NCBI RefSeq assembly: GCF_005877055.1
Contig: NZ_CP039424.1
Location: 868,001-932,000, forward strand
Origin: Citricoccus sp. SGAir0253
Lineage (GTDB): Bacteria; Actinomycetota; Actinomycetes; Actinomycetales; Micrococcaceae
Direction: 5' to 3'
DNA length: 64,000 bases
A program made the position numbers and the translations under genes. How positions within the stretch are numbered: the first letter of the stretch is position 1; each line of letters begins with the position of its first letter. Positions 5,722 to 51,365 of the stretch are shown in pieces. The notes beneath the pieces were generated by a model, which saw only the letters and a program-made list of their open reading frames with translations, was not told the origin of the DNA and did not search any database.

Positions 5722-5789
5722 TTCCCAAGTTGTCAGCACGCCACCGCGGCTGAGAAGTCTCTTCAGATGAACAGTTCTAGGAGGAACCT

Positions 5790-6980
<1,191 letters not shown>

Positions 6981-7000
6981 TCTAGGGCGCTGACAACGAG

Positions 7001-7036
7001 ACGACCCCCCTCCGGCCCCGGCCGGAGGGGGGTCGT
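7001..7036 (+). terminator. Terminator after tuf
   Basis: ACGACCCCCCTCCGGC and GCCGGAGGGGGGTCGT are perfect 16-bp arms around a CCCC loop, 20 nt after the tuf stop. There is no U run. It closes the str operon. Confidence 0.85.
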
Positions 7037-7047
7037 CCCGTTCCCGG

Positions 7048-7053
7048 TAGACT
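7048..7053 (+). promoter_or_regulatory. -10 box of leaderless small gene
   Basis: TAGACT ends exactly 7 nt before ATG 7061, directly behind the tuf terminator. The spacing predicts a leaderless transcript. Confidence 0.6.
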
Positions 7054-7060
7054 GGGGGCC

Positions 7061-7201
7061 ATGGAGTTCCTCATCGCCCTCGTGATCGGCCTGGCGGTGC
7101 TCGGCGCCGTCGTGGCCGGCGTGCTCAAGGCGCGCCGCACCTTCGCCCCCGAGCTCGAGCGCGCCCGGCGCATCCGCCGCGCCAACGGCCGGGACCGCTG
7201 A
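7061..7201 (+). CDS. Small single-pass membrane protein, 46 aa
   Basis: The 46-residue product starts MEFLIALVIGLAVLGAVVAG, one transmembrane helix at about residues 2-22. It is followed by a basic and acidic helix rich in Arg (LERARRIRRANGRDR). No function is recognised. The gene is supported by its own TAGACT box 7 nt upstream, a preceding terminator, and tight spacing (3 nt) to the next membrane-protein gene, with which it is probably co-transcribed. Confidence 0.65.
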   Translation: MEFLIALVIGLAVLGAVVAGVLKARRTFAPELERARRIRRANGRDR

Positions 7202-7204
7202 CCC

Positions 7205-7744
7205 GTGACGCAGGCCGACACCCGCCCCGGACCCGCCACCGCCTCCACCCGCCGCCCCGCCGGCACCCCGCTGCCCGGACCGCGCGCCCTGTTCCGTGCC
7301 GCGGCGACGGCCGAGATGGGCACGTGGGCGCTGCTGCTGACCGCGATGGTCCTGAAGTACTCCGGCACCACCGAGGCCCTGATGCCGCTCGCCGGCGGCC
7401 TGCACGGCTTCGTCTTCCTGTGCTACGCGCTCGTCGCGGCCGCGGTGGGCACCGACCAGCGCTGGGGCACGGCCCGGCGCGCCGCCGCCGTCGCGCTGGC
7501 CGTGGTGCCCTTCGCCACGGTGCCCCTCGAGCGCCGACTCGACCGCCGCGGGGCCCTGGGTCCGCAGTGGCGGCTGGCCGCCACCGCCGGCCGGCCGGCC
7601 GGCACCCCGCGGGGGCCGGCCGAGCGGGTCCTGGCCTGGGTGCTGCGGCACGTGCTGCTGGCCGCCGTCCTCGCGGTCGCCGCCGTCGTCCTCGTCTTCC
7701 TCGCGCTGCTCGCCGCCGGCCCGCCGGGGGAGTGGCTGGGCTGA
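7205..7744 (+). CDS. DUF3817-family integral membrane protein
   Basis: This 179-residue membrane protein contains FRAAATAEMGTWALLLTAM, then LKYSGTTEALMPLAGGLHGF, then LATVPLER-type segments. These are the marks of the DUF3817 family found across Actinobacteria next to diverse housekeeping genes. About three to four transmembrane helices are visible, the last near residues 145-170. The start is GTG 7205, 3 nt after the small upstream gene. The N terminus to about residue 30 is Pro/Arg-rich and probably cytoplasmic. No biochemical role is known for the family. Confidence 0.75.
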   Translation: MTQADTRPGPATASTRRPAGTPLPGPRALFRAAATAEMGTWALLLTAMVLKYSGTTEALMPLAGGLHGFVFLCYALVAAAVGTDQRWGTARRAAAVALAVVPFATVPLERRLDRRGALGPQWRLAATAGRPAGTPRGPAERVLAWVLRHVLLAAVLAVAAVVLVFLALLAAGPPGEWLG

Positions 7745-8069
7745 ATTCGCGCGTTCGCGGCTGATCTGTCATACTGGATCAGTTGCTCAAGCGCATGGGT
7801 GCGCGTGGGGCCGTTTCCGGCACCGCCGCCCGTGACCAAACACAACACCAATCCCCACACTGGATCGGCGGTCCGGTGCGCCTGCCCGCGATTGCGGAGC
7901 AAGTCACGACACGCCCGACCGCGTGGGTCGATGCCCCGGCAGGGCGAGGAACCCGGAGGACTCCGGATTCGGCCTGCGCGGGTGAAGAGAAGAAGCGCGG
8001 GACCGGCACGCCGGCCCCGTCGCACACAGGGACAGGTACGGACAACAAGTACGAAAGAGGCATGACGCC
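7745..8069 (+). promoter_or_regulatory. S10 operon promoter and leader region
   Basis: This gene-free stretch of 325 nt precedes rpsJ. CATACT at 7770-7775 is the likely -10 box. It lies inside an inverted repeat, CTGATC (7761-7766) / GATCAG (7777-7782). A related sequence, CACACTGGATCGG (7856-7868), resembles the -10 region CATACTGGATCAG (7770-7782). Within the leader, CCGGAG-GA-CTCCGG (7953-7966) is a tight dyad. An S10-type leader controlled by L4 is possible but not recognisable here. Confidence 0.5.
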
Positions 8070-8378
8070 ATGGCGGGACAGAAAATCCGCATCCGGCTGA
8101 AGTCGTATGACCACGAGGTCATCGACACTTCGGCTCGGAAGATCGTCGACACGGTCACGCGCGCAGGCGCAACGGTGGTGGGCCCGGTGCCGCTGCCCAC
8201 CGAGAAGAACGTGTACGTCGTGATCCGCTCTCCCCACAAGTACAAGGACAGCCGCGAGCACTTCGAGATGCGCACGCACAAGCGGCTCATCGACATCATC
8301 GACCCGACGCCGAAGGCCGTGGACTCGCTCATGCGCCTCGACCTGCCGGCGGACGTCAACATCGAGATCAAGCTCTGA
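8070..8378 (+). CDS. rpsJ: 30S ribosomal protein S10
   Basis: The 102-residue S10 runs from [19 protein letters not shown] to NIEIKL, full length for the family. S10 belongs to the 30S head and also pairs with NusB in antitermination. It opens the S10 operon, with the ATG preceded by GAAAGAGGC. The tip residues [14 protein letters not shown] are intact. Confidence 0.97.
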
Positions 8379-8398
8379 GAGGGAGGTGCTGAGAAACT

Positions 8399-9049
8399 AT
8401 GACCATCACCCGTAATGTCAAGGGCCTGCTGGGCACGAAGCTCGGCATGACCCAGGTGTGGGATGCCGACAACAAGCTCATCCCCGTCACCGTCGTGCAA
8501 GCCGAACCCAACGTCGTCACCCAGCTGCGCTCCGCCGAGGCCGACGGCTACACCGCCGTCCAGATCGCCTACGGCCAGATCGACCCGCGCAAGGTCACCA
8601 AGCCGCTCGCCGGCCACTTCGAGAAGGCCGGGGTCACCCCGCGCCGCCACGTGGTCGAGCTGCGCACCGCCGACTCCGCCGACTACACCCTGGGCCAGGA
8701 CGTCACCGTCGAGGTCTTCGAGGCCGGCCAGAAGGTCGACGTCGTCGGCAACACCAAGGGCAAGGGCTTCGCCGGTGCCATGAAGCGCCACGGCTTCTCC
8801 GGCGTCGGCGCCTCCCACGGTGCCCACAAGAACCACCGCAAGCCGGGCTCGGTCGGCGGTGCCTCCACCCCGGGCCGCGTCTTCAAGGGCCAGCGCCTGC
8901 CGGGCCGGATGGGCAACGTCCGCCAGACCACCCAGAACCTCACCCTCCACGGCGTCGACGTGGAGAAGAACCTGCTGCTCATCAAGGGCGCCGTCCCCGG
9001 CCCCCGCGGACAGGTCGTCCTGGTTCGCACCGCAGTGAAGGGAGCATGA
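8399..9049 (+). CDS. rplC: 50S ribosomal protein L3
   Basis: This 216-residue L3 starts [20 protein letters not shown]. It carries the long internal loop [20 protein letters not shown] that reaches towards the peptidyl-transferase centre. An RBS, GGGAGG, lies at 8380-8385. It lies 20 nt after rpsJ. The C terminus overlaps the possible upstream start of rplD. Confidence 0.97.
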
Positions 9050-9054
9050 GCTTC

Positions 9055-9705
9055 ATGGCCACGAACTCTGAAGCCAAGGTCGTCTCCGTCGATCTCCCCG
9101 CCGAGATCTTCGACGTCCAGTCCAACGTGCCGCTGATGCACCAGGTCGTGGTGGCCCAGCTGGCCGCCGCCCGCCAGGGCACCCACAAGGTCAAGCGCCG
9201 GGGCGAGGTGTCCGGTGCCGGCCGCAAGCCGTTCAAGCAGAAGGGCACCGGCCGCGCCCGCCAGGGCTCCATCCGCGCCCCGCACATGACCGGTGGTGGC
9301 GTGGTCCACGGCCCCGAGCCGCGTGACTACTCCCAGCGCACCCCCAAGAAGATGAAGGCCGCCGCCCTGCGCGGTGCCCTGTCCGACCGTGCCCGCAACG
9401 GCCGCGTCCACGTGATCGAGGAGCTGGTCTCGGCCGGCACCCCGTCCACGAAGGCCGCCAAGTCCGCCCTGGCCTCGCTGACGGCCGGCCGCAAGAACGC
9501 CCTCGTGGTCATCGACCGCGCGGACGACGCCGCGGCCCTGTCCGCCCGCAACCTGGAGTCGGTGCACACCCTGTACTTCGACCAGCTGAACACCTACGAC
9601 GTCCTGGTCAGCGACGACGTGGTCTTCACCAAGGCTGCCTTCGAGGGCTTCGTCCAGGCGGCGTCCGCGGCGAAGGCCGGCGCACAGAAGGAGGATGCCC
9701 AGTGA
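9055..9705 (+). CDS. rplD: 50S ribosomal protein L4
   Basis: The product is 216 residues from ATG 9055 ([19 protein letters not shown]). The extended loop [17 protein letters not shown] lines the exit tunnel. ATG 9046 is in frame (MSFMATNS) and would overlap the rplC stop, but GGAG at 9041-9044 sits too close to it and better fits ATG 9055. L4 commonly autoregulates the S10 operon in other bacteria; nothing here proves that. Confidence 0.95.
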
Positions 9706-10007
9706 GCGGCTCCATCAACAAGAACCCCCGCGACGTGGTCATCGCCCCGGTCGTGTCGGAGAAGAGCTACGGCCTGATCGACGAGGGTAAGTACACCTTC
9801 CTGGTCGACCCGCGCTCGAACAAGACCGAGATCAAGCAGGCGGTGGAGGCCATCTTCTCCGTCAAGGTTGACTCGATCAACACCCTTAACCGTGCCGGCA
9901 AGCGCAAGCGCACCAAGTTCGGTTGGGGCTCCCGCAAGAGCACCAAGCGCGCGGTCGTGACGCTCAAGGAAGGCACGATCGACATCTTCGGAGGTCCGCT
10001 CGCCTGA
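9702..10007 (+). CDS. rplW: 50S ribosomal protein L23
   Basis: The 101-residue L23 has [20 protein letters not shown] at the front and [15 protein letters not shown]-like basic strands behind. It sits at the tunnel exit and is the docking site for SRP and trigger factor. GTG 9702 overlaps the rplD stop by four bases, implying coupled translation. Confidence 0.97.
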
Positions 10008-10044
10008 CGGCGCGGCGGAGACCACTTAATCGAGGAACTGACAC

Positions 10045-10884
<840 letters not shown>

Positions 10885-10896
10885 GAGCCTGGAGAC

Positions 10897-11178
10897 ATGC
10901 CACGCAGCCTGAAGAAGGGCCCCTTCGTTGATCAGCACCTCTACCTCAAGGTGGACGCTGAGAACGAAAAGGGCACCAAGAACGTCATCAAGACCTGGTC
11001 CCGCCGGTCCATGATCATCCCCGACATGCTCGGGCACACGATCGCGGTGCACGACGGTCGCAAGCACGTCCCGGTGTTCATCACCGAGTCGATGGTCGGG
11101 CACAAGCTCGGCGAGTTTGCCCCCACGCGCACGTTCCGCGGCCACGTGAAGGACGACCGGAAGGGCAAGCGCCGCTGA
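10897..11178 (+). CDS. rpsS: 30S ribosomal protein S19
   Basis: This 93-residue S19 ([15 protein letters not shown] to KDDRKGKRR) is a canonical 30S head protein that contacts S13 and the A-site finger. TAGGAGCC lies at 10882-10889, and the gene begins 12 nt after rplB. Confidence 0.97.
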
Positions 11179-11224
11179 TCGCGGTGACTGCCCCGCCGAC
11201 AGAGAATTCGAAAGAAGGAAAGCA

Positions 11225-11587
11225 ATGGAAGCCAAGGCAATTGCGCGCCACCTGCGTGTAACGCCGATGAAGGCCCGGCGCGTCGTCGACCTTGTCCGTG
11301 GCAAGCAGGCGAACGAAGCACTGGCCATCCTGAAGTTCGCCCAGCAGGGCGCTTCGGAGCCGGTGTACAAGCTGGTCGCCTCCGCGGTGGCCAACGCCCG
11401 GGTGAAGGCCGACCGTGAGGGCCTGGCGTTCAACGAGGACGCCCTGTTCATCACCGAGGCCTTCGTCGACGAAGGACCGACCATGAAGCGGTTCCAGCCG
11501 CGGGCCCAGGGCCGCGCCGGACGCATCAACAAGCGCACCAGCCACGTCACCGTGGTCGTTGCCACCGAGGAAGAGGAGGGGAAGTAA
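11225..11587 (+). CDS. rplV: 50S ribosomal protein L22
   Basis: The 120-residue L22 starts [19 protein letters not shown]. It ends with the extended beta hairpin [20 protein letters not shown] that narrows the exit tunnel; changes in this loop cause macrolide resistance elsewhere, and none is apparent here. AAGAAGGAAAG precedes the ATG. It is part of the S10 operon. Confidence 0.97.
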
Positions 11588-11590
11588 CCC

Positions 11591-12397
11591 ATGGGTCAGA
11601 AGATCAACCCGAACGGATTCCGCCTCGGCATCACCACCGACCACGTCTCGCACTGGTTCGCTGACTCCACGAAGGAGGGCCAGCGGTACAAGGACTTCCT
11701 CAAGGAAGACATCAAGATCCGCGAGCTGATGACCGACGGCATGGAGCGCGCCGGCATCTCCAAGGTGGAGATCGAGCGCACCCGTGACCGCGTGCGGGTG
11801 GACATCCACACCGCCCGCCCGGGCATCGTCATCGGCCGCCGCGGCGCCGAGGCCGACCGCATCCGCGGCGAGCTCGAGAAGCTCACCGGCAAGCAGATCC
11901 AGCTGAACATCCTCGAGGTCAAGAACCCCGAGGTCGACGCGCAGCTGGTCGCCCAGGGCGTCGCCGAGCAGCTGGCCTCCCGCGTGGCCTTCCGCCGCGC
12001 CATGAAGAAGGCCATCCAGTCGGCCACGCGCGCCGGTGCCCAGGGCATCCGGATCCAGTGCGCCGGCCGCCTGGGCGGGGCCGAGATGTCCCGCTCGGAG
12101 TTCTACCGCGAGGGTCGGGTGCCGCTGCACACCCTGCGGGCGAACATCGACTTCGGCAAGTTCGAGGCCAAGACGACCTTCGGCCGCATCGGCGTGAAGG
12201 TCTGGATCTACAAGGGCGACCTGACGGCCAAGGAACTGGCCGCCAAGGAAGCCGCAGCACCGTCCGGCCGTGGCCGCGGTGGCGACCGTCGTGGTCCGGG
12301 CGGCGGCGGCGAGCGTCGCCGGCGCCAGGACCGGGCGCCGCGCGAGGCCGGCCAGCAGGGCGCGCCGCAGGGCGCCGCTGAAGGAGGCAACGCCTGA
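11591..12397 (+). CDS. rpsC: 30S ribosomal protein S3 with low-complexity C-terminal tail
   Basis: The product is 268 residues against about 233 in E. coli. The KH domain carries [17 protein letters not shown] (GxxG loop), and the S3 C-terminal domain carries [18 protein letters not shown]. After about residue 218 it continues as a Gly/Arg/Pro/Gln tail ([16 protein letters not shown] and onward). S3 forms part of the mRNA entry channel. Such tails are seen in related Micrococcales. Its stop overlaps the rplP start by one base. Confidence 0.97.
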
Positions 12398-12813
12398 TGC
12401 TGATTCCCCGTCGAGTCAAGTACCGCAAGCAGCACCACCCGAAGCGCTCGGGCAACGCCAAGGGCGGCACCGCCGTCACCTTCGGCGAGTGGGGCATCCA
12501 GGCCCTGTCCCCGGCGTACGTGACGAACCGGCAGATCGAGTCCGCCCGTATCGCCATGACCCGCTACATCAAGCGTGGCGGCAACGTGTGGATCAACATC
12601 TACCCGGACCGTCCGCTCACCAAGAAGCCGGCCGAGACCCGCATGGGTTCCGGCAAGGGTTCCCCCGAGTGGTGGGTCGCCAACGTCAAGCCGGGACGCG
12701 TGCTCTTCGAGCTCTCCGGCGTGAGCGAGGACGTGGCCCGCGAGGCGCTGCGCCTGGCAATGCACAAGCTGCCGCTGAAGGCACGTATCGTCCGCCGAGA
12801 GGGTGGTGAGTGA
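12397..12813 (+). CDS. rplP: 50S ribosomal protein L16
   Basis: This 138-residue L16 runs from [19 protein letters not shown] to [11 protein letters not shown]. It organises the tRNA-facing side of 23S rRNA, and the loop [14 protein letters not shown] (around residues 80-93) is intact. The start overlaps the rpsC stop by one base. Confidence 0.97.
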
Positions 12814-12815
12814 TC

Positions 12816-13091
12816 ATGGCTATCGGTTCCAAGGAACTGAACGTCGAGGCCCTGGACGGCCTGGACAACGCCCGTCTGGCCGAGGAGCTCAAGCGCTCCA
12901 AGGAGGAGCTGTTCAACCTGCGGTTCCAGTCGGCCACCGGCCAGCTGGACAACCACGGCCGCCTGAAGACCGTGAAGCGGGACATCGCCCGGATCTACAC
13001 GATCCTGCGCGAGCGTGAGCTGGGCATCCGCGAGGACGTCGTGGCCCCGGCCGCCGACAAGACCGAGAAGACCGAGGAGGAGGCGAAGTGA
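12816..13091 (+). CDS. rpmC: 50S ribosomal protein L29 with acidic/lysine tail
   Basis: The 91-residue product has the L29 core [18 protein letters not shown] and [19 protein letters not shown]. It extends past the usual 65-70 residues by a Lys/Glu-rich tail ([11 protein letters not shown]). ATG 12816 (MAIGSKE) matches related actinobacterial L29. GTG 12810 would overlap the rplP stop and has AGAGGG at better spacing, so two extra residues (Met-Ile) are possible. Confidence 0.93.
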
Positions 13092-13366
13092 CCGAGAACG
13101 TGAGCACCGAGGCCGCACGCGGCTACCGCAAGTCCGTCCGCGGGATCGTGGTCTCCGACAAGATGGACAAGACCATCGTCGTCGAGGTCGAGGACCTGAA
13201 GAAGCACGCCCTGTACGGCAAGGTCATGCGCTCGACCAAGAAGGTCAAGGCGCACGACGAGGAGAACTCGGCCGGCATCGGCGACCGCGTGCTCCTCTCC
13301 GAGACCCGCCCGCTGTCCGCCACCAAGCGGTGGCGCCTGGTGGAGATCGTCGAGCGCGCCAAGTAA
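13088..13366 (+). CDS. rpsQ: 30S ribosomal protein S17
   Basis: This 92-residue S17 has [20 protein letters not shown] and VGDRVLL-type motifs of the OB fold that binds 16S rRNA helix 11. GTG 13088 overlaps the rpmC stop by four bases. It is the last gene before a strong terminator, so it ends the S10 transcription unit. Confidence 0.97.
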
Positions 13367-13382
13367 GGCGAACCCCCCGGAC

Positions 13383-13423
13383 ACAGGGGCCCCGGACTGC
13401 GATTGGCAGACCGGGGCCCCTGT
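13383..13423 (+). terminator. Terminator ending the S10 operon
   Basis: ACAGGGGCCCCGG (13383-13395) and CCGGGGCCCCTGT (13411-13423) form a perfect 13-bp stem with a 15-nt loop, 17 nt after rpsQ. Confidence 0.8.
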
Positions 13424-13702
13424 GCGCTAGGATGGTGTGGCTGTGCGCCCTTGTTGGCGGGACTATCCACCCCGCGCGCCAGGGGTTTCGCGAACAACCT
13501 CCCGACCAGCCGCCTCGGCCTTGCCCTGCGGACTGCGGGTGCGGAGCACCGTCGTCGCCCGTCTGAACCGGGGCCACGGCAGGACCGGACCGGCGGATCC
13601 GCCTCCAGGGGCAGGGGTAAGCAGCCCGGGAAGACAACAATATCCGTTCCGCAAGGCTCGCCCAGGTCTGGGGGAGAACCAGCGCGACGACAGGAGTAAC
13701 GA
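13424..13702 (+). promoter_or_regulatory. spc operon promoter and leader
   Basis: TAGGAT at 13428-13433 is a TANNNT -10 box placed 5 nt after the S10 terminator. The remaining ~270 nt up to rplN hold no credible gene and would be transcribed leader. AGGAG at 13693-13697 is the rplN ribosome site. No known leader motif was recognised. Confidence 0.55.
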
Positions 13703-14071
13703 GTGATTCAGCAGGAGTCGCGGCTCAAGGTCGCCGACAACACCGGGGCCAAGGAGATCTTGACCATCCGTGTTCTCGGCGGGTCCGGACGCCGCTACGC
13801 AGGCATCGGCGACACGATCGTCGCCACCGTCAAGGACGCCATCCCCGGCGGCAACGTCAAGAAGGGCGACGTCGTCAAGGCCGTCATCGTGCGGACCAAG
13901 AAGGAGCGCCGTCGTGCCGACGGTTCCTACATCCGCTTCGACGAGAACGCCGCCGTCATCCTCAAGGCCGACGGCGAGCCGCGGGGCACCCGCATCTTCG
14001 GCCCCGTGGGCCGCGAGCTGCGTGACAAGAAGTTCATGAAGATCGTGTCGCTGGCACCGGAGGTGATCTGA
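13703..14071 (+). CDS. rplN: 50S ribosomal protein L14
   Basis: The 122-residue L14 runs from [19 protein letters not shown] to [11 protein letters not shown], full length. It binds 23S rRNA and the silencing factor RsfS. GTG 13703 has AGGAG 5 nt upstream. As first gene of the spc unit it has its own promoter here, unlike species in which S10 and spc are continuous. Confidence 0.97.
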
Positions 14072-14076
14072 CCACC

Positions 14077-14418
14077 ATGGCAAAGATCAAGAAGGACGAT
14101 CTCGTCCAGGTCATCGCCGGCAAGGACAAGGGCAAGCAGGGCAAGGTCCTGCGCGTGTTCCCGTCCCGTGACCGCGTGCTCGTGGAGGGCGTGAACCGCG
14201 TCACCAAGCACCTGCGCGCCGGCCAGAACAACAACGGTTCCACCGAAGGCGGCCTGCAGGTCGTCGAGGCCCCGGTCCACATCTCCAACGTGGCCGTCGT
14301 GGACCCGGAGACCAAGAAGCCGACCCGCGTGGGCTACCGCTTCGAGACCGTGGAGAAGAACGGCGAGACCAAGACCGTCAAGGTCCGCTTCGCCAAGGCC
14401 TCCGGAAAGGAGCTGTGA
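14077..14418 (+). CDS. rplX: 50S ribosomal protein L24
   Basis: This 113-residue L24 starts [20 protein letters not shown], the KOW motif, and includes [16 protein letters not shown]. It is an assembly initiator for the large subunit. It begins 5 nt after rplN, and its stop overlaps the rplE ATG (ATGA). Confidence 0.97.
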
Positions 14419-41433: not shown

Positions 41434-41901
41434 TCAAGCATCGGGGTAAGGCGAGGAGGGCAGTGGAACCGGTCGCCGCGCCGACGGGGAGGAAGCCTCC
41501 TGGGCGGCATAGACCACCTTCAGGTGATAGCCATAGCGGAGGAAGAACGCAGCGAGGAGTGTCACGGACTGTGCCAGCGGACTGAGGACATGGGCCACCT
41601 CGACCAGGAACCACAGGAATGGTATGCGGGCGCCTGTCTCCAGGGTGTTGAAGGTGAACGACCTCACGAACCGCTGTGGCAATGACCGGTGGGTACCGGA
41701 GAGGTGAGTGAAGACAAGCTTCTCCTGCATGATGAAGTTCGTGATGATGGTGAGTTCCCCGGCGACGATGGCCGCTAGTACGTACTCGGTCTGCAGGGAG
41801 ATCAGGGCCACCATGATGAGGACGTTGAGCACCGCTCCGAAGGCCCCGATGAGGGCGAACCGCGAGATCTTGGCGTTGGCCAGGCGGACCAGCCTGTTCA
41901 C
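41434..41901 (-). CDS. GtrA-family membrane protein
   Basis: The 155-residue product has four helices. FALIGAFGAVLNVLIMVALI and a Thr-rich third helix region with ITNFIMQEKLVF are typical of GtrA, proposed to flip polyprenyl-phosphate sugars or assist GT-C enzymes. GTG 41901 overlaps the upstream transferase stop (GTGA) and has GGGAGAGAAG upstream; an ATG at 41961 would create a 64-nt overlap. It is the last gene of the five-gene glycan operon, probably supplying lipid-linked sugar. Confidence 0.85.
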   Translation of the reverse strand: MNRLVRLANAKISRFALIGAFGAVLNVLIMVALISLQTEYVLAAIVAGELTIITNFIMQEKLVFTHLSGTHRSLPQRFVRSFTFNTLETGARIPFLWFLVEVAHVLSPLAQSVTLLAAFFLRYGYHLKVVYAAQEASSPSARRPVPLPSSPYPDA

Positions 41902-43556
41902 CGCTTCTCTCCCGTCAAGGTTGGTGACGCGCCATCCGGCAGCACTTCTCGAATCCTCCATTCACCGAAGGAAACGACAACGCGAGAGTTCTGCAACGCC
42001 ACATCGGCATCCTTGAGCGCGAGGTTCTCGATGTTGCGAACCGTCGGCGGCCCCTCGACGATCCAGTCGATGCTCCGCCAACCGCCGGGGTGATGGGCAT
42101 CGTACTCCGTGTCCAAATCCATCTTCTCCAGCGCGATGACCTTCCAGGGATCGTGGCGACCATCTGCGTTGATGTCCTGCCACATGGAGTACGGCACGAG
42201 GGCGACGTCTTCCCGTGGCAGGTTCTGCTGTGACCACTGCAATGCCTTGTGCCAGTCGTCGTTGGCCGTGTTGGTGAGGAGCCCCCGATTCATCGAGTAC
42301 CACGCGGGGATGAGCATGCCGAGGACGAGTGCCGTAAGCGTTCCAGCCACACCCACGGAAACCAGCCTGAGACCTGCAGATGACTTCGTCTTGGCGGCGT
42401 GCCGACCGCGGTAAGGGACTCGAGGGAACAGTCGGGACACCGTCGCCCATGCGATGTCGGTGGCGATGGCGATGGCAAGCGCCAGGAGGGGAATGGCCGC
42501 AACGATGTACATGGCCGGGAGGTAGCCGTGCCCGATCACCACTGGCGCGGAGAACAGGAGCAATGCGGCGGGTATCCAACGGGCCTCGCGGCGCAGCAGG
42601 CACAACAGTGCTGCCCCCATGCCGATGAGTATCAAGTAGCTGTCGTAGTACAACCAGCCGCCGACCAACTCCGTACGTCCGGAGGAGGGATCGAAGAGGC
42701 TTCCGGACCCGGGACGAGAGAGGAACTGGAACCTGAGCGCGTCCTGTAGTGAGACGTGGCCGGCCCCGGCGATCAGTTCCCCGCGCAGGACAGCCAGCAA
42801 GGGGAAGAACGCCAGGACCAGCCCTCCGACGGACAGGAACCCGATCACGGAGAAGAAGCGGGTCTGCCAGTACGGGCGATGCAGCAAGGCCAGCAGCAAG
42901 GCGGGGCCGAAGATGGCCAGCGTCTCCTTGGACAGGACCGCCACGGCGAAGCACGCCCCGGCGCCAATGTGGTGCCACAACTTGAGCTCGAGCGACAACG
43001 CCAGGTAGAAGGCCAAGAGGAGCCAGGGTATGCCCACGTTGTCGATGAAGACCTGACGGCCAAGGACGAGGGACAGGGGAGAGAGGCAGAAGAGCAGCGC
43101 GCCCATGATGGCGAACGGGAGCGACGCTCTCAACCGGCGCGCCAGAAGGAACACGAGCAACGTGGTGGCGACGAAGAACAGTCCCACGACGTAGCGCATC
43201 TGCCCCACGGCCGTCTCGTCTCCGTGGCCCAGCAGGGTGGGGATCCACGACAGCACTGCTAGCTGCAGCCACCCCAGCGGTGGGTGGTCGTACCAGTAGG
43301 TATAGGGAGCAAGGCTGCCGTTGAGCGACGAAAGGGCTTGTGCAGTATAGGTGCCTTCATCATCCTGATACGCCGACGCGTGAAGGACGTTCCAACTGGC
43401 AACTACAGCCGCCAGCAAGGCCACAATCATCGCTGCTTTCTGGTTCGGCGTACGCGCCTTGGAGAACTGCAGGACAGACGCCACCATGCCGCGGAGACGC
43501 GACGACCACAAGACGGCTGCCGGCAGGAATCGCCAGGCCACCACCGCGGGCTTCAT
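41898..43556 (-). CDS. GT-C membrane glycosyltransferase (PMT/ArnT-like, GT39 type)
   Basis: This 552-residue, 11-13-helix membrane enzyme has SAYQDDEGTYTAQALSSL in the first outer loop; its Asp-Glu is the catalytic or metal motif of the PMT/ArnT group. YWYDHPPLGWLQLAVL follows. A C-terminal soluble domain of about 120 residues faces outside. It should use a polyprenyl-phosphate sugar, fitting the GtrA partner. ATG 43556 overlaps the GT2 stop (ATGA). The acceptor is unknown and could be the polymer made by the GT2 neighbour or an exported protein. Confidence 0.82.
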   Translation of the reverse strand: MKPAVVAWRFLPAAVLWSSRLRGMVASVLQFSKARTPNQKAAMIVALLAAVVASWNVLHASAYQDDEGTYTAQALSSLNGSLAPYTYWYDHPPLGWLQLAVLSWIPTLLGHGDETAVGQMRYVVGLFFVATTLLVFLLARRLRASLPFAIMGALLFCLSPLSLVLGRQVFIDNVGIPWLLLAFYLALSLELKLWHHIGAGACFAVAVLSKETLAIFGPALLLALLHRPYWQTRFFSVIGFLSVGGLVLAFFPLLAVLRGELIAGAGHVSLQDALRFQFLSRPGSGSLFDPSSGRTELVGGWLYYDSYLILIGMGAALLCLLRREARWIPAALLLFSAPVVIGHGYLPAMYIVAAIPLLALAIAIATDIAWATVSRLFPRVPYRGRHAAKTKSSAGLRLVSVGVAGTLTALVLGMLIPAWYSMNRGLLTNTANDDWHKALQWSQQNLPREDVALVPYSMWQDINADGRHDPWKVIALEKMDLDTEYDAHHPGGWRSIDWIVEGPPTVRNIENLALKDADVALQNSRVVVSFGEWRIREVLPDGASPTLTGEKR

Positions 43557-44833
43557 GACTGGACCGCCATGTATCCGAGGTGCGAACCGGCATGCTTGGT
43601 CTTCTCCCATCTGAAGTCGCTCTGCCTGAACTTAACGAAGGCCCGGAGCGCTGAGAAGGCGAGGAGCATCTGGTAGAAGGGCGTTCCCAGGACGAGCCGG
43701 GCATAGTCGAAGAGCCGGATCCGGTATCCGTGGTCGCGCCCGAATTCCCGGAGCATGCAGATGTCGAATGCGAGAGCTGCTACGGCCGGGACCAGGGGGA
43801 CGAACGTCAGCAGTGCTACGGGCACCGGCACCTTGCCGAAGAGCGCAGTGGCGATGCAGATTGGTATGCAGAGTCCGGTAAAGGCCATGAAGTGCTGCTG
43901 AAGGAGCGTCCACCATGCGATGACTCTCTGCCTGAAGGTCGGCAGGGATGCCCAATCACGCTTGGCATAGACCTGCATGAATCCCAAGGACCACCGCGTC
44001 CGCTGTTTGACCAGTGCGCGGATCGAATCCGGGGTTTCCTCCTTGGTCACCAAGTGGGGAGAGTACGCGATGACGATCTTCCGGTGGAGGACGGACAGCC
44101 GGACACCGAGATCACAGTCCTCAGCCAGGCAGTCACCGTCCCATCCGTCGATGGACCGCAGGACGTCGCGGCGGACGAAGACCGTGTTCCCGCCCAACGG
44201 GATGAACCCCCGTTTCGCGTAGGCGTGCAGCCGGGAACGGAACCACATGAAGTACTCCAGGCAGTTCCGCAATGCGTACCACGAGTCGCGGTAGTTGATC
44301 AGCTGGACGGCTCCTTGGACGACATCAGCGTTCTTCACCTGGAAACAGCTGTCAACGTGGCGAAGCAGGTCGGGCGCCGCGATCGACTCAGCGTCGAAGA
44401 CACCGATCACGTCATTGCGGCACAGGGCCAGGGCAGTGTTGAGTTGGCGCGGCTTGCTCTTCACTGGACCGGTGTCCACACTGACCCGGACCATCCCCCC
44501 CCGTTCCGCGGCCAACTTCCGGGCGATGGCCACGGTTTCCGGGTCGTCGTCACCGACAGAGATGATCACCTCGACACGCGGATGGTCCTGGCTGCATAGG
44601 TGGGCCAGAGTCGTCCGCATGACCCGTTCGCTCTCGTGGCGGCAGGGCATGATCAGTGAGAAGGAGGAACCGAGGGTGGGCAGCAACTCCGTGTACGAGG
44701 TCGACGCCTGGGTCCTCGGGTCCCACCACGCATGGGTCGTGACATGCAAGGTCGACAGGGCGATGAGGAACAACACCCCGGAGATCGCGACAAGCAGTGT
44801 TCCCAACAGAACGGCGAGTGTCGTGGTCAGCAT
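43553..44833 (-). CDS. Processive family 2 glycosyltransferase (CslA/cellulose-synthase-like)
   Basis: The product is 426 residues: one N-terminal helix (5-30), a GT-A domain, and C-terminal helices (305-360, 380-400). The processive D,D,D,QxxRW set is complete: Asp95-97 in SVGDDDPET, Asp147 in IGVFDAES, Glu238-Asp239 in CLAEDCDLGVRL, and Gln277/Arg280/Trp281 in KQRTRWSLGF. Such enzymes polymerise and extrude beta-linked polysaccharide. An AA5 oxidase in the same operon recalls Streptomyces cslA-glxA. The enzyme is shorter than typical BcsA and lacks a PilZ domain. No good RBS precedes ATG 44833. Confidence 0.85.
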   Translation of the reverse strand: MLTTTLAVLLGTLLVAISGVLFLIALSTLHVTTHAWWDPRTQASTSYTELLPTLGSSFSLIMPCRHESERVMRTTLAHLCSQDHPRVEVIISVGDDDPETVAIARKLAAERGGMVRVSVDTGPVKSKPRQLNTALALCRNDVIGVFDAESIAAPDLLRHVDSCFQVKNADVVQGAVQLINYRDSWYALRNCLEYFMWFRSRLHAYAKRGFIPLGGNTVFVRRDVLRSIDGWDGDCLAEDCDLGVRLSVLHRKIVIAYSPHLVTKEETPDSIRALVKQRTRWSLGFMQVYAKRDWASLPTFRQRVIAWWTLLQQHFMAFTGLCIPICIATALFGKVPVPVALLTFVPLVPAVAALAFDICMLREFGRDHGYRIRLFDYARLVLGTPFYQMLLAFSALRAFVKFRQSDFRWEKTKHAGSHLGYMAVQS

Positions 44834-44941
44834 CGTCAGCCGATTCAGTCGCAGGTGCTATGGGCGAAGGTCCACAGGGGCTGAGTGATAGTCGGCCCAT
44901 CCAGCGAGGGCCTGGCGGACTGCTGCCCGCCGCCCTGCCCG

Positions 44942-45607
44942 TCAGTCATCACCTGCATCACAGGCCCTCCCGTCGCGATCGGTGTCCAGGCGTTGCGGGT
45001 CGACGCCCTTCCGGCGCACGGCTGCACCATCCGGGAAGTACTTCCGGAGCTCCGAACAGGACCAGCGGTGCTCCATGGTCGACGGGGAAATGCCGGCATC
45101 CGCCATGTCCCTGAGATGCCCCGCCATGCTGGGAGGAACCACCGGGACGCACTGACCGTTCTCGCCGTATTCGCGGAGGCACCCGCCGACGCCGTTTCCG
45201 CCCGGTGCGTGGACCTGGGACGGAAGGACCTTTCCTCGGAGCGTGGGCGGGGGACCCTGTCGAGCGGGGGAACGGTCCTTGAGGGGATGTTCTGTACCCG
45301 CGGCCTGAACCAGCGACGTCTGCTTCCTGTTGGCCGGATGGGTCTCGTCCGACGGTCCCGGATTGGCCGGTCCCAGGCGGGGGGCTGCGGGCAGGCCGCT
45401 CAATGGCGACTGGGCCAGCGCCGAGTGTTCGGCATGGTTGGAATCGGCGAACGCCGCCGCGCCTCCACGGGCGGCATATCCCGGCTCCGGACTCCGCGAG
45501 TTGTTACCCGACGGGTCGTGCGCCAGGGCTAGGAGAACGGTCAGGCCCAGGGCCACGACGATGTTCCGCACCCATCCGGCTGCCTTGCTGCCTCGGAATC
45601 CAGTCAT
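44942..45607 (-). CDS. Exported excalibur-domain protein
   Basis: The 221-residue product has an N-terminal helix (WVRNIVVALGLTVLLALAHD) acting as signal or anchor, then a low-complexity Pro/Ser/Arg region. Two Cys (GGCLREYGENGQCV) follow, then a C-terminal excalibur domain: CSELRKYFPDGAAV and LDTDRDGRACDAGDD, a DxDxDG calcium-binding loop. Excalibur domains occur in secreted and surface proteins. ATG 45607 overlaps the oxidase stop (ATGA), so it is translated with it. Perhaps a calcium-dependent wall or glycan binder. Confidence 0.75.
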   Translation of the reverse strand: MTGFRGSKAAGWVRNIVVALGLTVLLALAHDPSGNNSRSPEPGYAARGGAAAFADSNHAEHSALAQSPLSGLPAAPRLGPANPGPSDETHPANRKQTSLVQAAGTEHPLKDRSPARQGPPPTLRGKVLPSQVHAPGGNGVGGCLREYGENGQCVPVVPPSMAGHLRDMADAGISPSTMEHRWSCSELRKYFPDGAAVRRKGVDPQRLDTDRDGRACDAGDD

Positions 45608-48189
45608 GAGATCCACACCCATTTCGCGATACTCGGGATGTCATTGGCGTCGAGGACCGTCAGCATGTACGGACCGGGCGGCAACAGGTTCGGGTTGTTG
45701 GGGATGGTGGCGCTGACAGTCCCGCCCTTGGTGGTCATGGGCAGGTCCACCAGTCGAGCGTTGGTGTCCGTCTGGTGGGTGGCGGACATCGGGGACATCA
45801 GCTGTGCTGCCTTGAGGGTGCCCTTGGTTCGCAGCGTGATCTTTTCGCCGTAGGTGGCCTTCGCAGGGGCTGAGGTGATCGCGGGCCGTGTTCCGTTGAA
45901 CATGTACTTGGGTGAGTAAACGGAGATGCGCAGCTCGAACGAGTTGTTCAGCGGATTGGATCCCAGGACCGCCACCCTTCCGTCTGGCAGGAGGATGGCC
46001 GACGAATGGTAATTCCGGCCCACCGGGTCTGGGGTGATGCTGAGCCAGTCATTGGTGCTCGGCCGATACACCGCCGCTGTCATCACGTTGTCCGAGCGGT
46101 TGTGGCGCGCCCCGTTGGCCGCCAGGACGGTGCGGTCCGGGAGGTTCAGCAGGTTGACGTAGCCCTTACCGGGACCTGGGAGATCGGGTCCGGGCACATA
46201 GGCGGGATTGGGCTGGGACAAGTCGATGATGTCCACCAAGTTGATGGCCGGGGAATTCATGTCGGTGTTCCCGCCACCGACGATCATGACCTTCTGGTCC
46301 TGTGCCGGGCCGAGGAGAACCGACCCAGCCTGGTCGCGCAGGTCCTTCTCTCGTAGTCCGGGCACGTCCCACATGCGGGCGCTCTTCCAGTCATAGAGGG
46401 AGGCCCCCGTGCCCGGCAGGCCGTTGCCGAAGGTGTGGCTGCCGGAGTAGAACAACCGCCCATCGTTGAGCAGGTACATGTGGGGGTAGGTTCCCCAGTA
46501 GCTCCACGTCTGCGGCACGCTGGCCGAGGGCAGCCATTTCCGGGTCGAGGTCTGGAACATCTCGGTGAGGACGGTCCCCTCCGCCTTCTCGTCCAGGCCG
46601 CCGGCGGCCCAGACATCTCCGTTCCCCAGCTTGGTGAGGGTGGGGTACCAGTGCCCCCCCGCCATGTCACTGACCGGATGGAACCTGTCATTCGTGGGGT
46701 CGAAGTAGTAGCTCTTCTTCGAGCCCTTGAACGTGGTGGGGCCTTCGCCTGCGGTGGGGTAGGCCAGCGTCCCACCGCCCAGCAGGACCTTGCCGTCGGG
46801 CAGCGTCACGTGGCCGGCACAGAACATGTCATAGGGAACGGGGATGTCGGTGAAGACGCCCGTGGCTGGGTTCCACACCGAGGCCTTGAACGTTCCCGCT
46901 GCGAAGGCCGCGCCCTCATTGCCAGACCCCGCGATCAGCAGCAATCTGCCATCACTCAGGAGCGTGGAGTGGACCGACCGCAGTGGCATGGGTGCCTTGA
47001 ACACTTCCCACGACCCTAGCTGGGCCGGCGTGCCTGGAGGTGGTGGAGGCGGAACGACTTCCTTCAGGGAGTAGTTGGTCGTCTTCAGCGTTCCGTTGGC
47101 GTGGAGGGAGATCCCGAAGGACAGGGCGTCGACGCCCTCGGGGATGACGGGGGTGGTGGCTGAGGCGGTAGTCCAGGCTTCCGAGGCTGCCGGTTGGGCC
47201 AGATCAGTCCAGTACGCCCATCCTGCCGCCGTATGCGTGAACACCGTGATCGAGTTACCCGGGGACGTGGACTTGTACTCGACTCTGAGGGTGTATGTGC
47301 TTCCGGCCTTGACGGCAGGGGCACACGCAGGGGTTTCGGACTGCACCAGCTTGGCATCGCCGCTGGAGTAATCGCTCATGGTGATGGACCAGGACCGAGA
47401 GCCGGCTGGAGCAGTCGTCGGGATGTCCGTGGACAGCCCTTGCGATACCGTGCGGGCGCCCCACCCTGTTGCCGTGAAGCATTCCGGGACCGGACTTCCC
47501 GTGGCAAGGGTGCCGTTGGTGACGAGTTCCCCATCATCAGGCGGGGGTGGGGGAACGGTGCTGGTGGCGAACAACGAGTAGTCGTCGGTCGTCAGTTCTC
47601 CATCGGCTGCGATGGACAAGCCGAAGACGATGCGGTCCGTTCCGGCCGGAATCGGTGGTGTTTGAACCGCGGCTTCCGCCCAGTCCGCCGACGCGGGGAC
47701 GCGTCCGAGATCCCCCCAGTAGGTCCAGCCGCCGGCAGTGTGCCTGAAGGTCGTGATGGACACCTCAGTCGTGGCCTTGTACCAGACGCCGAGATTGTAG
47801 GTCTGGCCCTCGGTCACTGAAGGTGCGCAGTCCATGGTCTCCTTCTGGAGAGCCTTCCGGTCACCGGACGTGTAGCCGGTGATGGACACGGTCAGGGCGC
47901 GCTCACCGGTCCGGCCGGGCGCGAAACTCCAGGCTCCTGCAGTGCCCCATCCCGCGGCGGTGAAGCAATCAGGGAAGTCGGCACCGGTCTCGAGCGAGGG
48001 GTTGCTGACGAGGTTGGGACCAACGCTCTCGGCAGCCGAGACCGGGCGCACCGGGACGCCCCAAGAGCTCAGGAGGAGGCACAGCGTGGCCAAGGTCGCC
48101 AGGAGGACTCGAAGCCTGACGCGTGGCAGAATCGGGGCCCTCCTGGTTCGGCCCTCCGTATGCACGGGCAGCGACGTGGCCGAAGTCAT
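45604..48189 (-). CDS. Secreted AA5 copper-radical oxidase with two N-terminal CBM-like repeats
   Basis: The product is 861 residues. A signal peptide (about 1-52) is followed by two tandem ~145-residue repeats (57-205 and 222-376), each with SNPS/TNGT, PDCF/PECF, and GGWTYWGDL/AGWAYWTDL, resembling jelly-roll carbohydrate-binding modules. A Pro linker leads to a kelch beta-propeller plus Ig-like end, as in galactose oxidase/GlxA. Every copper and radical ligand has a counterpart: Cys457 (YDMFCAG) with Tyr515 (GGHWYPT) for the Tyr-Cys cofactor, Tyr727-His728 (GRNYHSS), and His805 (SATHQTD). It should oxidise sugar alcohols or aldehydes to release H2O2. It is the first gene of the operon, and the RBS is AGGTAGG. 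The substrate is inferred to be the GT2 product. Confidence 0.85.
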   Translation of the reverse strand: MTSATSLPVHTEGRTRRAPILPRVRLRVLLATLATLCLLLSSWGVPVRPVSAAESVGPNLVSNPSLETGADFPDCFTAAGWGTAGAWSFAPGRTGERALTVSITGYTSGDRKALQKETMDCAPSVTEGQTYNLGVWYKATTEVSITTFRHTAGGWTYWGDLGRVPASADWAEAAVQTPPIPAGTDRIVFGLSIAADGELTTDDYSLFATSTVPPPPPDDGELVTNGTLATGSPVPECFTATGWGARTVSQGLSTDIPTTAPAGSRSWSITMSDYSSGDAKLVQSETPACAPAVKAGSTYTLRVEYKSTSPGNSITVFTHTAAGWAYWTDLAQPAASEAWTTASATTPVIPEGVDALSFGISLHANGTLKTTNYSLKEVVPPPPPPGTPAQLGSWEVFKAPMPLRSVHSTLLSDGRLLLIAGSGNEGAAFAAGTFKASVWNPATGVFTDIPVPYDMFCAGHVTLPDGKVLLGGGTLAYPTAGEGPTTFKGSKKSYYFDPTNDRFHPVSDMAGGHWYPTLTKLGNGDVWAAGGLDEKAEGTVLTEMFQTSTRKWLPSASVPQTWSYWGTYPHMYLLNDGRLFYSGSHTFGNGLPGTGASLYDWKSARMWDVPGLREKDLRDQAGSVLLGPAQDQKVMIVGGGNTDMNSPAINLVDIIDLSQPNPAYVPGPDLPGPGKGYVNLLNLPDRTVLAANGARHNRSDNVMTAAVYRPSTNDWLSITPDPVGRNYHSSAILLPDGRVAVLGSNPLNNSFELRISVYSPKYMFNGTRPAITSAPAKATYGEKITLRTKGTLKAAQLMSPMSATHQTDTNARLVDLPMTTKGGTVSATIPNNPNLLPPGPYMLTVLDANDIPSIAKWVWIS

Positions 48190-48832: not shown

Positions 48833-50101
48833 CTACCGCCCGCGCTTGAGCGAGAACCAGGTCTGCGGGCCGGCGACGCCGACCGGGGGCAGACCGCGGG
48901 AGGACTGGTAGGAGCGCACCGCGACCTGCGTGGCGGGGCCGAACCGGCCGTCGACGACGACGCTCCTGCGCAGCGTCGCGGACAGGCCGCGCTGCAGGTG
49001 CCGCACCTGGGTGCCCGAGTCCCCGCGGGACAGCGAGGTGCCGCGTGCCGGCCGGGTGACGATCGAGCCCCACGTCCGCGGCCCGGCCACGCCCTCCACC
49101 GACATGCCGAGCGCCCGCTGGTAGGACCGCACCGCCCGTTCGGTCCGCGCGCCGAAGACGCCGTCCACCGCTCCCGGGGAGTGGCCGGCGTCGCGCAGGG
49201 CGGACTGCAGGCGGCGGACCGCCGCGCCCCGGGCCCCGCGGCGCAGGCTGGGGTAGCTGCCGCCTGCTCCGGCGCTGCCGGCGCTCCCGCCGCCGGCCGC
49301 GCCGGCGAAGCCCAGGGTGCTGCCGCCCAGCGCCGCCGCCACGGCGCGGCGCAGCGCCGGCAGCCGCGCGTAGAGGGCGTCGCCGCAGCACTCCGTCCGG
49401 GCGCCCGGGACGTCACGGTGGGCGATGATGTCCTGCACCCGGATGCCGTACCGGCGGCACGCGTAGGCGCACAGCCGCACGAGCGCGTTCCACTGCGCCG
49501 CCGTCGGGAGGGCGCTGACGTACATCCCGTCCACCTCGATGCCGATCGACTCGTCGTTGAAGCCGTAGGCGTGGGCGCCCTCCACGAACCGCGTCCCGGC
49601 GTCCAGGGCGGCCGCGGAGCCGTGGCGGCCCTCGAGGACCTGCCCGCCGCGCGCGATGGTGAAGTGCTGGCCCGTGTCCGCCCAGCCGCGGCGCAGGTGG
49701 TTGCGCTGGAGCAGGCGTCCCAGCGCGTGCGCTGCCCCGGCGGATGTGCCCGCTCCGTTCTCGTGCGCGGTGTGGTGGATGACGAGGTACCCCGGGCGGC
49801 GCGCGATCGTGTGCAGGTGCCGCCGTGGCGGGCGGGCGCCCCAGGCGGCGGTGGTGATGATCGCCGGGCGGCCCACGGCGTGCGCGTGGGCGGCCTCCGG
49901 GGCGACGGCGGCGCTGCCCACCGCGAGCGCCCCGAGGGCCGCGGTGCCCAGCAGTAGGCGGCGGCGGGAGAGTTCCGGTCCGGGGGAGGGCGCCGTGGTG
50001 GACCCGGGCGCCGGGAGGCCGGCGCGGCCGTCCCGCGGCCCGGGGCGGGGTGACGTCGGGCGAGGCGACGCGGCCTCGGCCGGGGTGGGGTTCTCGGTCA
50101 T
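48833..50101 (-). CDS. Tat-exported N-acetylmuramoyl-L-alanine amidase with two PG-binding domains
   Basis: The product is 422 residues. A twin-arginine signal, ELSRRRLLLGTAALGALAVG (around 43-62), is followed by an Amidase_2/PGRP domain with zinc ligands in LVIHHTAHENG (His), AHRDVPGART (His) and a downstream Cys. Two tandem peptidoglycan-binding type 1 repeats follow (GARGAAVRRLQSALRDAG and GDSGTQVRHLQRGLSATL). It cleaves the MurNAc-L-Ala bond in the wall. ATG 50101 has GGGAG upstream. It is divergent from the sortase gene, so both act at the surface. Confidence 0.88.
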   Translation of the reverse strand: MTENPTPAEAASPRPTSPRPGPRDGRAGLPAPGSTTAPSPGPELSRRRLLLGTAALGALAVGSAAVAPEAAHAHAVGRPAIITTAAWGARPPRRHLHTIARRPGYLVIHHTAHENGAGTSAGAAHALGRLLQRNHLRRGWADTGQHFTIARGGQVLEGRHGSAAALDAGTRFVEGAHAYGFNDESIGIEVDGMYVSALPTAAQWNALVRLCAYACRRYGIRVQDIIAHRDVPGARTECCGDALYARLPALRRAVAAALGGSTLGFAGAAGGGSAGSAGAGGSYPSLRRGARGAAVRRLQSALRDAGHSPGAVDGVFGARTERAVRSYQRALGMSVEGVAGPRTWGSIVTRPARGTSLSRGDSGTQVRHLQRGLSATLRRSVVVDGRFGPATQVAVRSYQSSRGLPPVGVAGPQTWFSLKRGR

Positions 50102-50417
50102 GTCAGGCTCCCATCGGCGGTGGCTGGCCGGTCGGGTGCGCCGGCCCGGGGAGGGGGCGGGTGCAGGGTGACCGGCGGTCGCGCGCACCGTAGGCACAGG
50201 CCGGCGGGGGAGTGGTCGAGAAACGCCGAGGTCAGGACAGGACGGTACTTAAGTGCATAGCCACGGCCCGCAGAGGCGCGGGACGAGCGGTGGGCAGGCG
50301 TCCAACACGCGTCCGACCGCATCCTCTCCCGTGGGAGTGGGGTACGGGGCACTCGTGCCCGGGCCGGGGCTCCTTCCTAGTCTCGAAGGTGTCGATCCGA
50401 CGGGAAGGTAGGTCGTC
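50102..50417. promoter_or_regulatory. Divergent promoters amidase / sortase
   Basis: This is a 316-nt gap. TAGTCT at 50378-50383 is a plausible sortase -10 with GGGAAGGTAGG as its ribosome site. An AT-rich patch (GGTACTTAAGTGCATAG, 50244-50260), unusual here, may carry the amidase promoter on the minus strand. Nothing else was seen. Confidence 0.4.
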
Positions 50418-51365
50418 ATGGCGAAGCCCCGCGGTGCCGCCGCCTCGGCCGCCCGGCGCGCGACGTCCACGATCCTCCGGGGCGGCGCCGAGCTGCTCCT
50501 GACCGCCGGCGTCCTCATGCTCCTGTTCACGGCCTGGCACCTGTGGTGGACCAACCTCGCGGCGGACGAGGCGCAGGCCTCCGCCGTCGCCGAGACCGTC
50601 CGGGAGTGGAGCGGCCAGGACGACGGGGCGGTCGAGACCTCCGCGGCCGGCGAGCCGATCCGGGCGGAGGACGGCACGGGGGCCGCCGCGGTGCGGGCAC
50701 CAGGGGCGGAGGAGGCCATCCGGGCGGAGGCCCCCGGGGCCACCGCCGAGGCTGCCCCCGAGACGGGGACCGGGAACGGCGCGGGGAGCGGCACCGTGCA
50801 GGGGCCCGGCGCCGAGCAGGCCGCCCGGGACGGCGGTGTCCCGCAGGCCGCCGGGCCGGCCCTGGACAGCGGGGTGTGGGGCATCCTCTACGTTCCCCGC
50901 TTCGGGCCCGACTACGCCAAGCCCATCGCCGAGGGAGTGGACCCGGACGTCCTGGACTCCGTCGGCATCGGGCACTACCCGGGCACGCAACGTCCGGGAC
51001 AACTCGGGAACGTCGGCCTGGCCGGGCACCGGCAGACCCACGGCGGGGTCTTCTGGCACATGGACAGGCTCGGTCCCGGAGACCGGGCCTACCTCCAGAC
51101 CCGGGAGGGCGTCTACACCTATGTCTACCGGAGCACGGAGATCGTGCCCCCTTCCGGGATCCAGGTGCTCTACCCGGTGCCGGGGGACAGCGGCGCGGTC
51201 CCCACGAGGAGGCTCCTGACCCTCACCACGTGCCACCCGCCCTTCACCACGGACCTGCGCATGGTCGTCCACCTGGAACAGGGCTCGTTCGTCCCGGCCG
51301 GGACCACGGCGCCGCCGGAGGTCCGGGACGTGGTCCGCCGGGCCGCCGGCCTCGAGGGAGCGTGA
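50418..51365 (+). CDS. srtE: Class E sortase
   Basis: This 315-residue transpeptidase has one N-terminal helix (about 25-48) and a long, probably disordered Ala/Gly/Glu linker (50-150). The sortase barrel then holds His204 in GLAGHRQTHGG, catalytic Cys272 in LTLTTCHPP and Arg281 in TTDLRMVVH. Class E enzymes of high-GC Gram-positives cut LAxTG-type signals and anchor proteins to the wall. The linker is longer than usual. No sortase substrate is encoded in the window. The next gene begins 3 nt downstream. Confidence 0.9.
   Translation: MAKPRGAAASAARRATSTILRGGAELLLTAGVLMLLFTAWHLWWTNLAADEAQASAVAETVREWSGQDDGAVETSAAGEPIRAEDGTGAAAVRAPGAEEAIRAEAPGATAEAAPETGTGNGAGSGTVQGPGAEQAARDGGVPQAAGPALDSGVWGILYVPRFGPDYAKPIAEGVDPDVLDSVGIGHYPGTQRPGQLGNVGLAGHRQTHGGVFWHMDRLGPGDRAYLQTREGVYTYVYRSTEIVPPSGIQVLYPVPGDSGAVPTRRLLTLTTCHPPFTTDLRMVVHLEQGSFVPAGTTAPPEVRDVVRRAAGLEGA

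Follow-up and report, generated by a model that had tools for sequence, protein, structure and literature searches.

An operon of five genes that appears to combine two known kinds of system, oxidase-coupled glycan synthesis and lipid-linked outer glycosylation, lies on the minus strand of Citricoccus sp. SGAir0253, a soil-type actinobacterium (Micrococcaceae), at positions 41434–48189 of the 64,000-nucleotide stretch of DNA analysed here (the window; contig NZ_CP039424.1, positions 868,001 to 932,000). The operon is real and conserved, and apparently undescribed. No account of it was found in the literature searched, subscription papers lying mostly outside that search, in agreement with the preliminary description of this DNA, which had suggested an undescribed system. 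We interpret the operon as machinery that may make, decorate and oxidise a cell-surface polysaccharide, and we regard this full four-step reading as about evenly balanced between holding and failing.

The operon encodes, in this order, an AA5 radical copper oxidase (45604..48189, 861 aa), an excalibur-like protein (44942..45607, 221 aa), a membrane GT2 glycosyltransferase that we propose as polymer synthase (43553..44833, 426 aa), a GT-C (PMT_2-like) transferase (41898..43556, 552 aa) and a GtrA family membrane protein, proposed to be a lipid-sugar flippase (41434..41901, 155 aa). All five open reading frames were confirmed with the family affinities first given to them, the excalibur assignment being weaker than the others; Pfam scores were 82 bits for the galactose oxidase-like (GO-like) E-set domain of the AA5, 140 for Glyco_tranf_2_3 in the GT2, 44.5 for PMT_2 in the GT-C and 55.8 for GtrA_DPMS_TM in the GtrA. 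The genes overlap by ATGA at the AA5/excalibur and GT2/GT-C junctions and by GTGA at GT-C/GtrA, with a gap of about 100 bases between excalibur and GT2. For the excalibur-like, GT-C and GtrA proteins, the starts of the longest open reading frames were rejected in favour of likelier starts within the four-base overlaps (45607, 43556 and 41901), from which the above lengths are counted. The ATGA between AA5 and excalibur is retained in 18 of 23 non-duplicate loci, the remainder having TTGA (one), GTGA (two) or TAA (two).

Separation of the five genes in homologues had been named beforehand as grounds for abandoning the proposal; they stay together in 19 of 25 non-duplicate loci with an AA5 of the window type, all within 10 kb, so that chance does not explain the clustering. 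This set comprises the window, L033–L048, L054, L055, L057, L058, L060 and L099–L101, with seven duplicates (L056, L059, L062 and L069–L072) excluded. Among the other six loci, three are cut by contig ends (L034, L044 and L045) and three are partial, with AA5 and excalibur only in L043, GtrA on the opposite strand at a distance of about 3 kb in L054, and no GtrA found in L057. The five-gene set spans at least two families, Micrococcaceae and Microbacteriaceae, and two further genomes of the order that bear the label of another family; genera from which the AA5 was read include Arthrobacter, Pseudarthrobacter, Cryobacterium, Agromyces, Galactobacter and Kocuria. Within the 25 widest gene clusters, six loci had flanking genes in common with one another and the remaining loci shared no flanks. 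Two loci, L058 and L060, have an inverted synthase half and a second GT-C.

The oxidase has the features of its class, namely a Cys-Tyr pair, an axial Tyr, two His ligands and a kelch propeller with an E-set domain. Its catalytic part (residues 388–861, 45607..47028), which aligns to GlxA, holds Cys457, Tyr515, Tyr727, His728 and His805, and these copper and radical ligands, correctly numbered in the preliminary description, are all invariant across 27 aligned AA5 proteins. Trp514, beside Tyr515, is invariant as well and corresponds to Trp288 of GlxA, because the W288A mutant structure 5lqi reads RAYP where 4unm reads RWYP. The two tandem N-terminal repeats reported earlier are also real: module 1 (residues ~53–212, 47554..48033) and module 2 (residues ~217–382, 47044..47541) are 46% identical over 155 residues, and beta-rich according to the structural model. 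The twin-module sequence is common to AA5 and to polysaccharide deacetylases of the CE4 type. A single hydrophobic segment (residues 24–42), either a signal peptide or an anchor, precedes the modules; the protein is probably secreted. The oxidase keeps all its ligands and is related in structure to GlxA, which structural comparison placed closest to it. Nevertheless, on the GlxA equivalog NF052501 the window protein scored 425.6 bits against a cut-off of 800, while a control GlxA from the same bacterial family, encoded in L065, reached 941.9. GlxA domain 2 (PF21110), an insertion in the propeller of GlxA, gave no Pfam match in the window AA5 and 71 bits in the control, and the residues of 4unm between 114 and 230 have no counterpart in the alignment. 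The AA5 tree was built from 29 of the available proteins. L047 was excluded from alignments and tree, its AA5 frame being split between two overlapping open reading frames (L047, 9920–12564) by sequencing error or decay.

The excalibur-like protein is strongly linked to the window-type oxidase. Among 295 genomes of the family it occurs in exactly the 13 that carry the window-type AA5 clade (AA5 E 1e-170 or better), giving a co-occurrence table of 13/0/0/282 (Fisher p 6e-23), and no excalibur-like match was found in the genomes of this set that carry only other AA5 types. G072, the sole marginal match among the other 282 (E 5.9e-6), was left out of the count, its match covering the N-terminal and linker part only. 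The excalibur name is less firmly supported: the calcium-binding domain PF05901 is matched by 17 of the 22 homologues at E values of 10 or lower (best 2.4e-4), and the window protein itself falls under the cut-off of 22 bits, with 13.3 bits at a loose limit and no match at E 0.001. Its single hydrophobic helix is joined by a disordered linker to a compact C-terminal domain, which is modelled with a predicted local distance difference test (pLDDT) score of 84–93 from residue 151 onward (67.6 overall). In an alignment of 22 of the available sequences, this domain contains four invariant Cys and a DxDxDG-type loop, and His169, Met173, Met183 and His185 (226-residue numbering) are at least 90% conserved.

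The GT2 carries the full D,D,D,QxxRW set that had been ascribed to it (DD at 95, DAES at 147, AEDC at 237 and QRTRW at 277). QxxRW is found in non-processive enzymes as well, and the motif alone is insufficient as proof of the processivity that had been read from it. The likening to CslA did not hold up either. Among curated equivalogs PgaC/IcaA was best at 66.5 bits (cut-off 422), followed by HpnI at 58, with CelA at 35 (cut-off 699), and the protein, at 426 aa, is shorter than the CslA control (646 aa). In the tree, the 20 GT2s of the operons group in a single clade (support 99/97) that excludes the L065 synthase of the CslA type, BcsA and PgaC of E. coli, and the DPMS-type enzymes; the deep branches are long, so outer placement is unsure. 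GT2s of at least 59% identity occur in 11 of the 295 genomes, all 11 with AA5, and two genomes hold the AA5 clade without such a GT2; seven further genomes have a GT2 of 49–53% identity without a window-type AA5. GH8, GH5 and GH26 enzymes are typical of beta-1,4-hexans. Since GH8 and GH5 occur in sister loci, and GH26 in cellulose-synthase-like variants, we propose that the backbone is probably a beta-linked hexose polymer of the beta-1,4-glucan or mannan type. One locus, L089 (genome G280), holds three GT2 copies within 17 kb, each adjoining GT-C genes.

The most constant neighbour of this GT2 is the GT-C, which adjoins it, whether or not the oxidase is present, in 39 of the 41 non-duplicate GT2 loci examined; the two misses lie at contig ends, and five further GT2 matches are outside this count. 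The GT-C has 10 hydrophobic segments in a simple plot and an acidic motif, DDEGTY, before the second of them, in which Asp66, Gly68, Thr69 and Tyr70 are invariant in 16 aligned sequences, taken from those available. In 16 of the 19 complete loci a DPMS-type domain directly precedes GtrA (with a split frame in L100), and in L037 and L058 Pfam places the two domains within a single protein; GtrA stands without the DPMS half in the window, L033 and L047. The earlier view of GT-C and GtrA as a decoration pair is plausible as a branch of the pathway.

Fifteen GT2 loci have no AA5 nearby. Eight of these carry GH8, DUF4397 and sortase genes, one has a weak GH8 match, two have GH5, three hold nothing recognised among the genes checked and one is cut by a contig end. 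The DUF4397/GH8/sortase loci (L085–L088, L090 and L104–L106, the last three with a DPMS-type gene in addition) likely form a polymer system of their own. In L102 and L103, GH5 proteins (5416–7134 and 11643–12839; 5264–7801 and 12337–13431) flank the GT2, GT-C and DPMS/GtrA set, the first preceding GT2 in the usual place of AA5 and the second lying downstream; a GH5 protein of L103 matches a mannanase-type binding domain. Other loci retain the oxidase and change the synthase. A paralogous locus in the host's own genome (L053, C1:1105000–1124999; 3784–14326) encodes GtrA, GT2, a CE4 deacetylase, GT-C, a 1098-aa AA5, an excalibur protein with a lipobox-like start, judged by eye, and a protein whose GH18 match is weak (20.8 bits, cut-off 29.6). 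L061 encodes GtrA, AA5, excalibur, a BcsA-like GT2, GT-C, GH26 and PIG-L. The AA5s of L053 and L061 belong to the same AA5-excalibur clade as the window oxidase and lie beside different synthases together with a GT-C. In Actinocorallia, L050 (9884–18864) has a BcsA-like GT2, GH26, GT-C and four tandem AA5 genes, with no excalibur or GtrA match in that locus, and L051 (5369–12160) has three AA5 genes in tandem. AA5 and GT-C thus recur with at least three kinds of synthase, and this is our best argument that the oxidised group may be tied to what the GT-C adds.

Based on these associations, we propose that the GT2 would polymerise a beta-linked hexose backbone and export the polymer. A DPMS-type enzyme, whose gene most complete relatives carry inside the operon and which the host genome perhaps encodes at another site, would make a polyprenyl-phosphate hexose, which GtrA would flip and from which GT-C would add hexose to the emerging polymer as side groups, as the families and their linkage suggest. 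Outside the cell, the AA5 may bind the polymer via its twin modules and turn a primary alcohol, in the simplest case the C6-OH of the sugar that GT-C adds, into an aldehyde, releasing H2O2; the aldehydes could cross-link the matrix to amines. The excalibur-like protein may be a dedicated extracellular partner of the oxidase, acting perhaps in copper loading, calcium-dependent folding or anchoring.

Several observations weigh against this proposal. A simple plot gives only three clear hydrophobic segments in GT2, and no close solved processive synthase was found, the best profile match being 6yv7, a family 2 transferase, at 39 bits, with cellulose synthases at 34. The profile search with GT-C finds no relative in the Protein Data Bank, and PMT_2 is a broad family. 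Supply of a lipid-sugar donor is unproven in the window, because its GtrA lacks the DPMS half and the sole DPMS-like gene found elsewhere in the genome at E 1e-5 is 32% identical. Because CE4-type proteins have the twin modules as well, the polymer could be an acetylated or amino-sugar one and not a plain hexan. Three of the 15 GT2 loci without AA5 have no recognised hydrolase among the genes checked, and in one relative, L043, AA5 and excalibur lie apart from the remaining three genes. Finally, the operon is patchy, with AA5 in two of eight sampled genomes of the genus, the host's own included; such an occurrence would fit horizontal gain.

An explanation without a new polymer is that GT2, as an HpnI- or GtrB-like enzyme, makes a lipid-linked sugar or glycolipid which GtrA flips and GT-C loads onto an existing wall polymer or protein, there to be oxidised by AA5. 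It is consistent with the presence of QxxRW in non-processive enzymes, with HpnI as second-best curated match and with the lack of a second, DPMS-type GT2 in the window operon. Moreover, the scheme proposed for teichoic acid glycosylation has a GT2 in the cytoplasm making a lipid-linked sugar, a flippase, and a GT-C on the outside (PMC5836110). However, a DPMS-type domain is already encoded before GtrA in those 16 of 19 complete loci, so that the QxxRW GT2 would be redundant there, and the GH8 and GH5 polysaccharide hydrolases of the sister loci are as expected beside polymer synthases; we consider this explanation unlikely. Alternatively, the chief task of the AA5 might be to activate or stabilise the synthase by acting as its protein partner, the oxidase chemistry being secondary. 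In Streptomyces, CslA-GlxA makes cellulose in vitro, CslA activity depends on GlxA and truncation of GlxA lowers it (PMC11022532). Fourteen GT2-GT-C loci have no AA5 nearby, so AA5 is not needed for this GT2 family as such; the invariant copper ligands and the missing GlxA domain 2 also weigh against such a role, which we find rather improbable.

It is very unlikely, in our judgement, that the oxidase works to produce H2O2 or to scavenge sugars from the environment and is co-transcribed only for reasons of regulation. A solved Pseudarthrobacter galactose oxidase (9g43) and other AA5 types in the family without the remaining four genes nearby (L063, L064 and L066–L068) lend it some support; against it stand the AA5-excalibur clade beside GT2 and GT-C in three synthase contexts, the translational overlap, and the modules that polysaccharide deacetylases also have. 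If GT-C and GtrA were bystanders, a plain cellulose system of the CslA-GlxA kind in a non-filamentous host would explain the structural nearness to GlxA and the pairing of synthase and AA5 as in Streptomyces. We hold it to be highly improbable given the GlxA equivalog score, the missing PF21110, a GT2 that is neither CslA nor BcsA, and a GT-C that is a more constant neighbour of GT2 than AA5 is.

The operon therefore works, under our polymer proposal, like CslA-GlxA in outline, as the preliminary description held, but it is not an orthologous system, because its synthase is not CslA-like and its oxidase falls under the GlxA cut-off and lacks domain 2. With CslA-GlxA(-CslZ) it shares a synthase gene, an AA5 with a GlxA-like active site (the Trp beside the Tyr that is cross-linked in GlxA) and, as proposed, a surface glycan as product; it differs in a GT2 from another clade, in the twin modules of its AA5 and, as noted earlier, in the addition of excalibur, GT-C and GtrA. 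Arthrobacter-type genera are not known to form mycelium. In a 2013 survey, actinobacterial GlxA orthologues were found only in Streptomyces and Frankia (PMC3543389), and the window-type AA5 family is outside that picture. The control locus L065 (6512–10499), with a CslA-type synthase beside a true GlxA (942 bits), likewise lies outside the genera that the survey names. Maturation of GlxA depends on Sco and on DtpA, a peroxidase of the DyP type; the enzyme accepts glycolaldehyde as substrate but showed no significant turnover of galactose or of various other sugars (PMC4736821). In the host's own genome neither a DyP peroxidase N-domain nor an AA10 lytic polysaccharide monooxygenase was found; a genome-wide search for GH6 gave no match, and its control likewise gave none.

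With three-component glycosylation (CsbB/YfhO, GtrABC and Arn-type), the operon shares GtrA, a multi-span GT-C with an acidic motif and, in most relatives, a DPMS-type GT2; it differs in its second, QxxRW-type GT2 and in the oxidase or hydrolases, and the acceptor is probably a polymer of the same operon. BcsA-BcsZ and PgaC-PgaB have in common with it a membrane GT2 with D,D,D,QxxRW, and there are parallels in the GH8 (the BcsZ family) of the sister loci and the CE4 deacetylase of the paralogous locus, although here the GT2 forms a separate clade and scores far under both curated cut-offs, and AA5 replaces the hydrolase or deacetylase. The P. siccitolerans enzyme 9g43 and fungal AA5_2 oxidases have the fold, the copper ligands and an extra domain before the propeller, at 29% and about 25% identity, respectively, to the window AA5.

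A wider generalisation, which we offer tentatively and regard as doubtful, is that Micrococcales possess decorate-then-modify polymer machines built on a GT2 and GT-C core fed with polyprenyl-phosphate sugar and fitted with exchangeable finishers, either AA5-excalibur, GH8-DUF4397-sortase or GH5. In the AA5 version, side-sugar aldehydes of a branched, galactomannan-like or branched-glucan polymer would cross-link the matrix, and excalibur would be a new, dedicated maturation or anchoring factor replacing the DtpA route. What bacteria gain by coupling glycan synthesis to a radical copper oxidase is a standing question even for Streptomyces. In the present operon, the side sugar that the oxidase acts on could come from the transferase encoded next to it, and versions of the core pair without the oxidase occur naturally; the operon thus allows the substrate question to be tested directly and offers a candidate new source of enzymes for glycan aldehydes as well as a new partner protein.

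In the window, the operon is flanked by an amidase that bears peptidoglycan-binding repeats (48833–50197) and by a sortase of class E (50418–51365), both outside the 25 widest gene clusters common to the loci. The scanned flanking genes (amidase, sortase and a DUF222/HNH gene) include no CslZ-type endoglucanase. The G+C content is 62 to 69% in the operon genes, 79% in the nearby amidase gene, 74% in the DUF222 gene and 68% in adjoining ribosomal genes. Elsewhere, a reading frame of 1174 aa in L063 (9265–12789) joins multicopper oxidase domains to an AA5 domain that follows them. The conjugative plasmid pYA7-1b of Arthrobacter sp. YA7-1 (L096, 1–7023) carries a GT2/GtrA fusion and a GT39 and, 2.5 kb further, a deacetylase with the same twin modules as the window oxidase.

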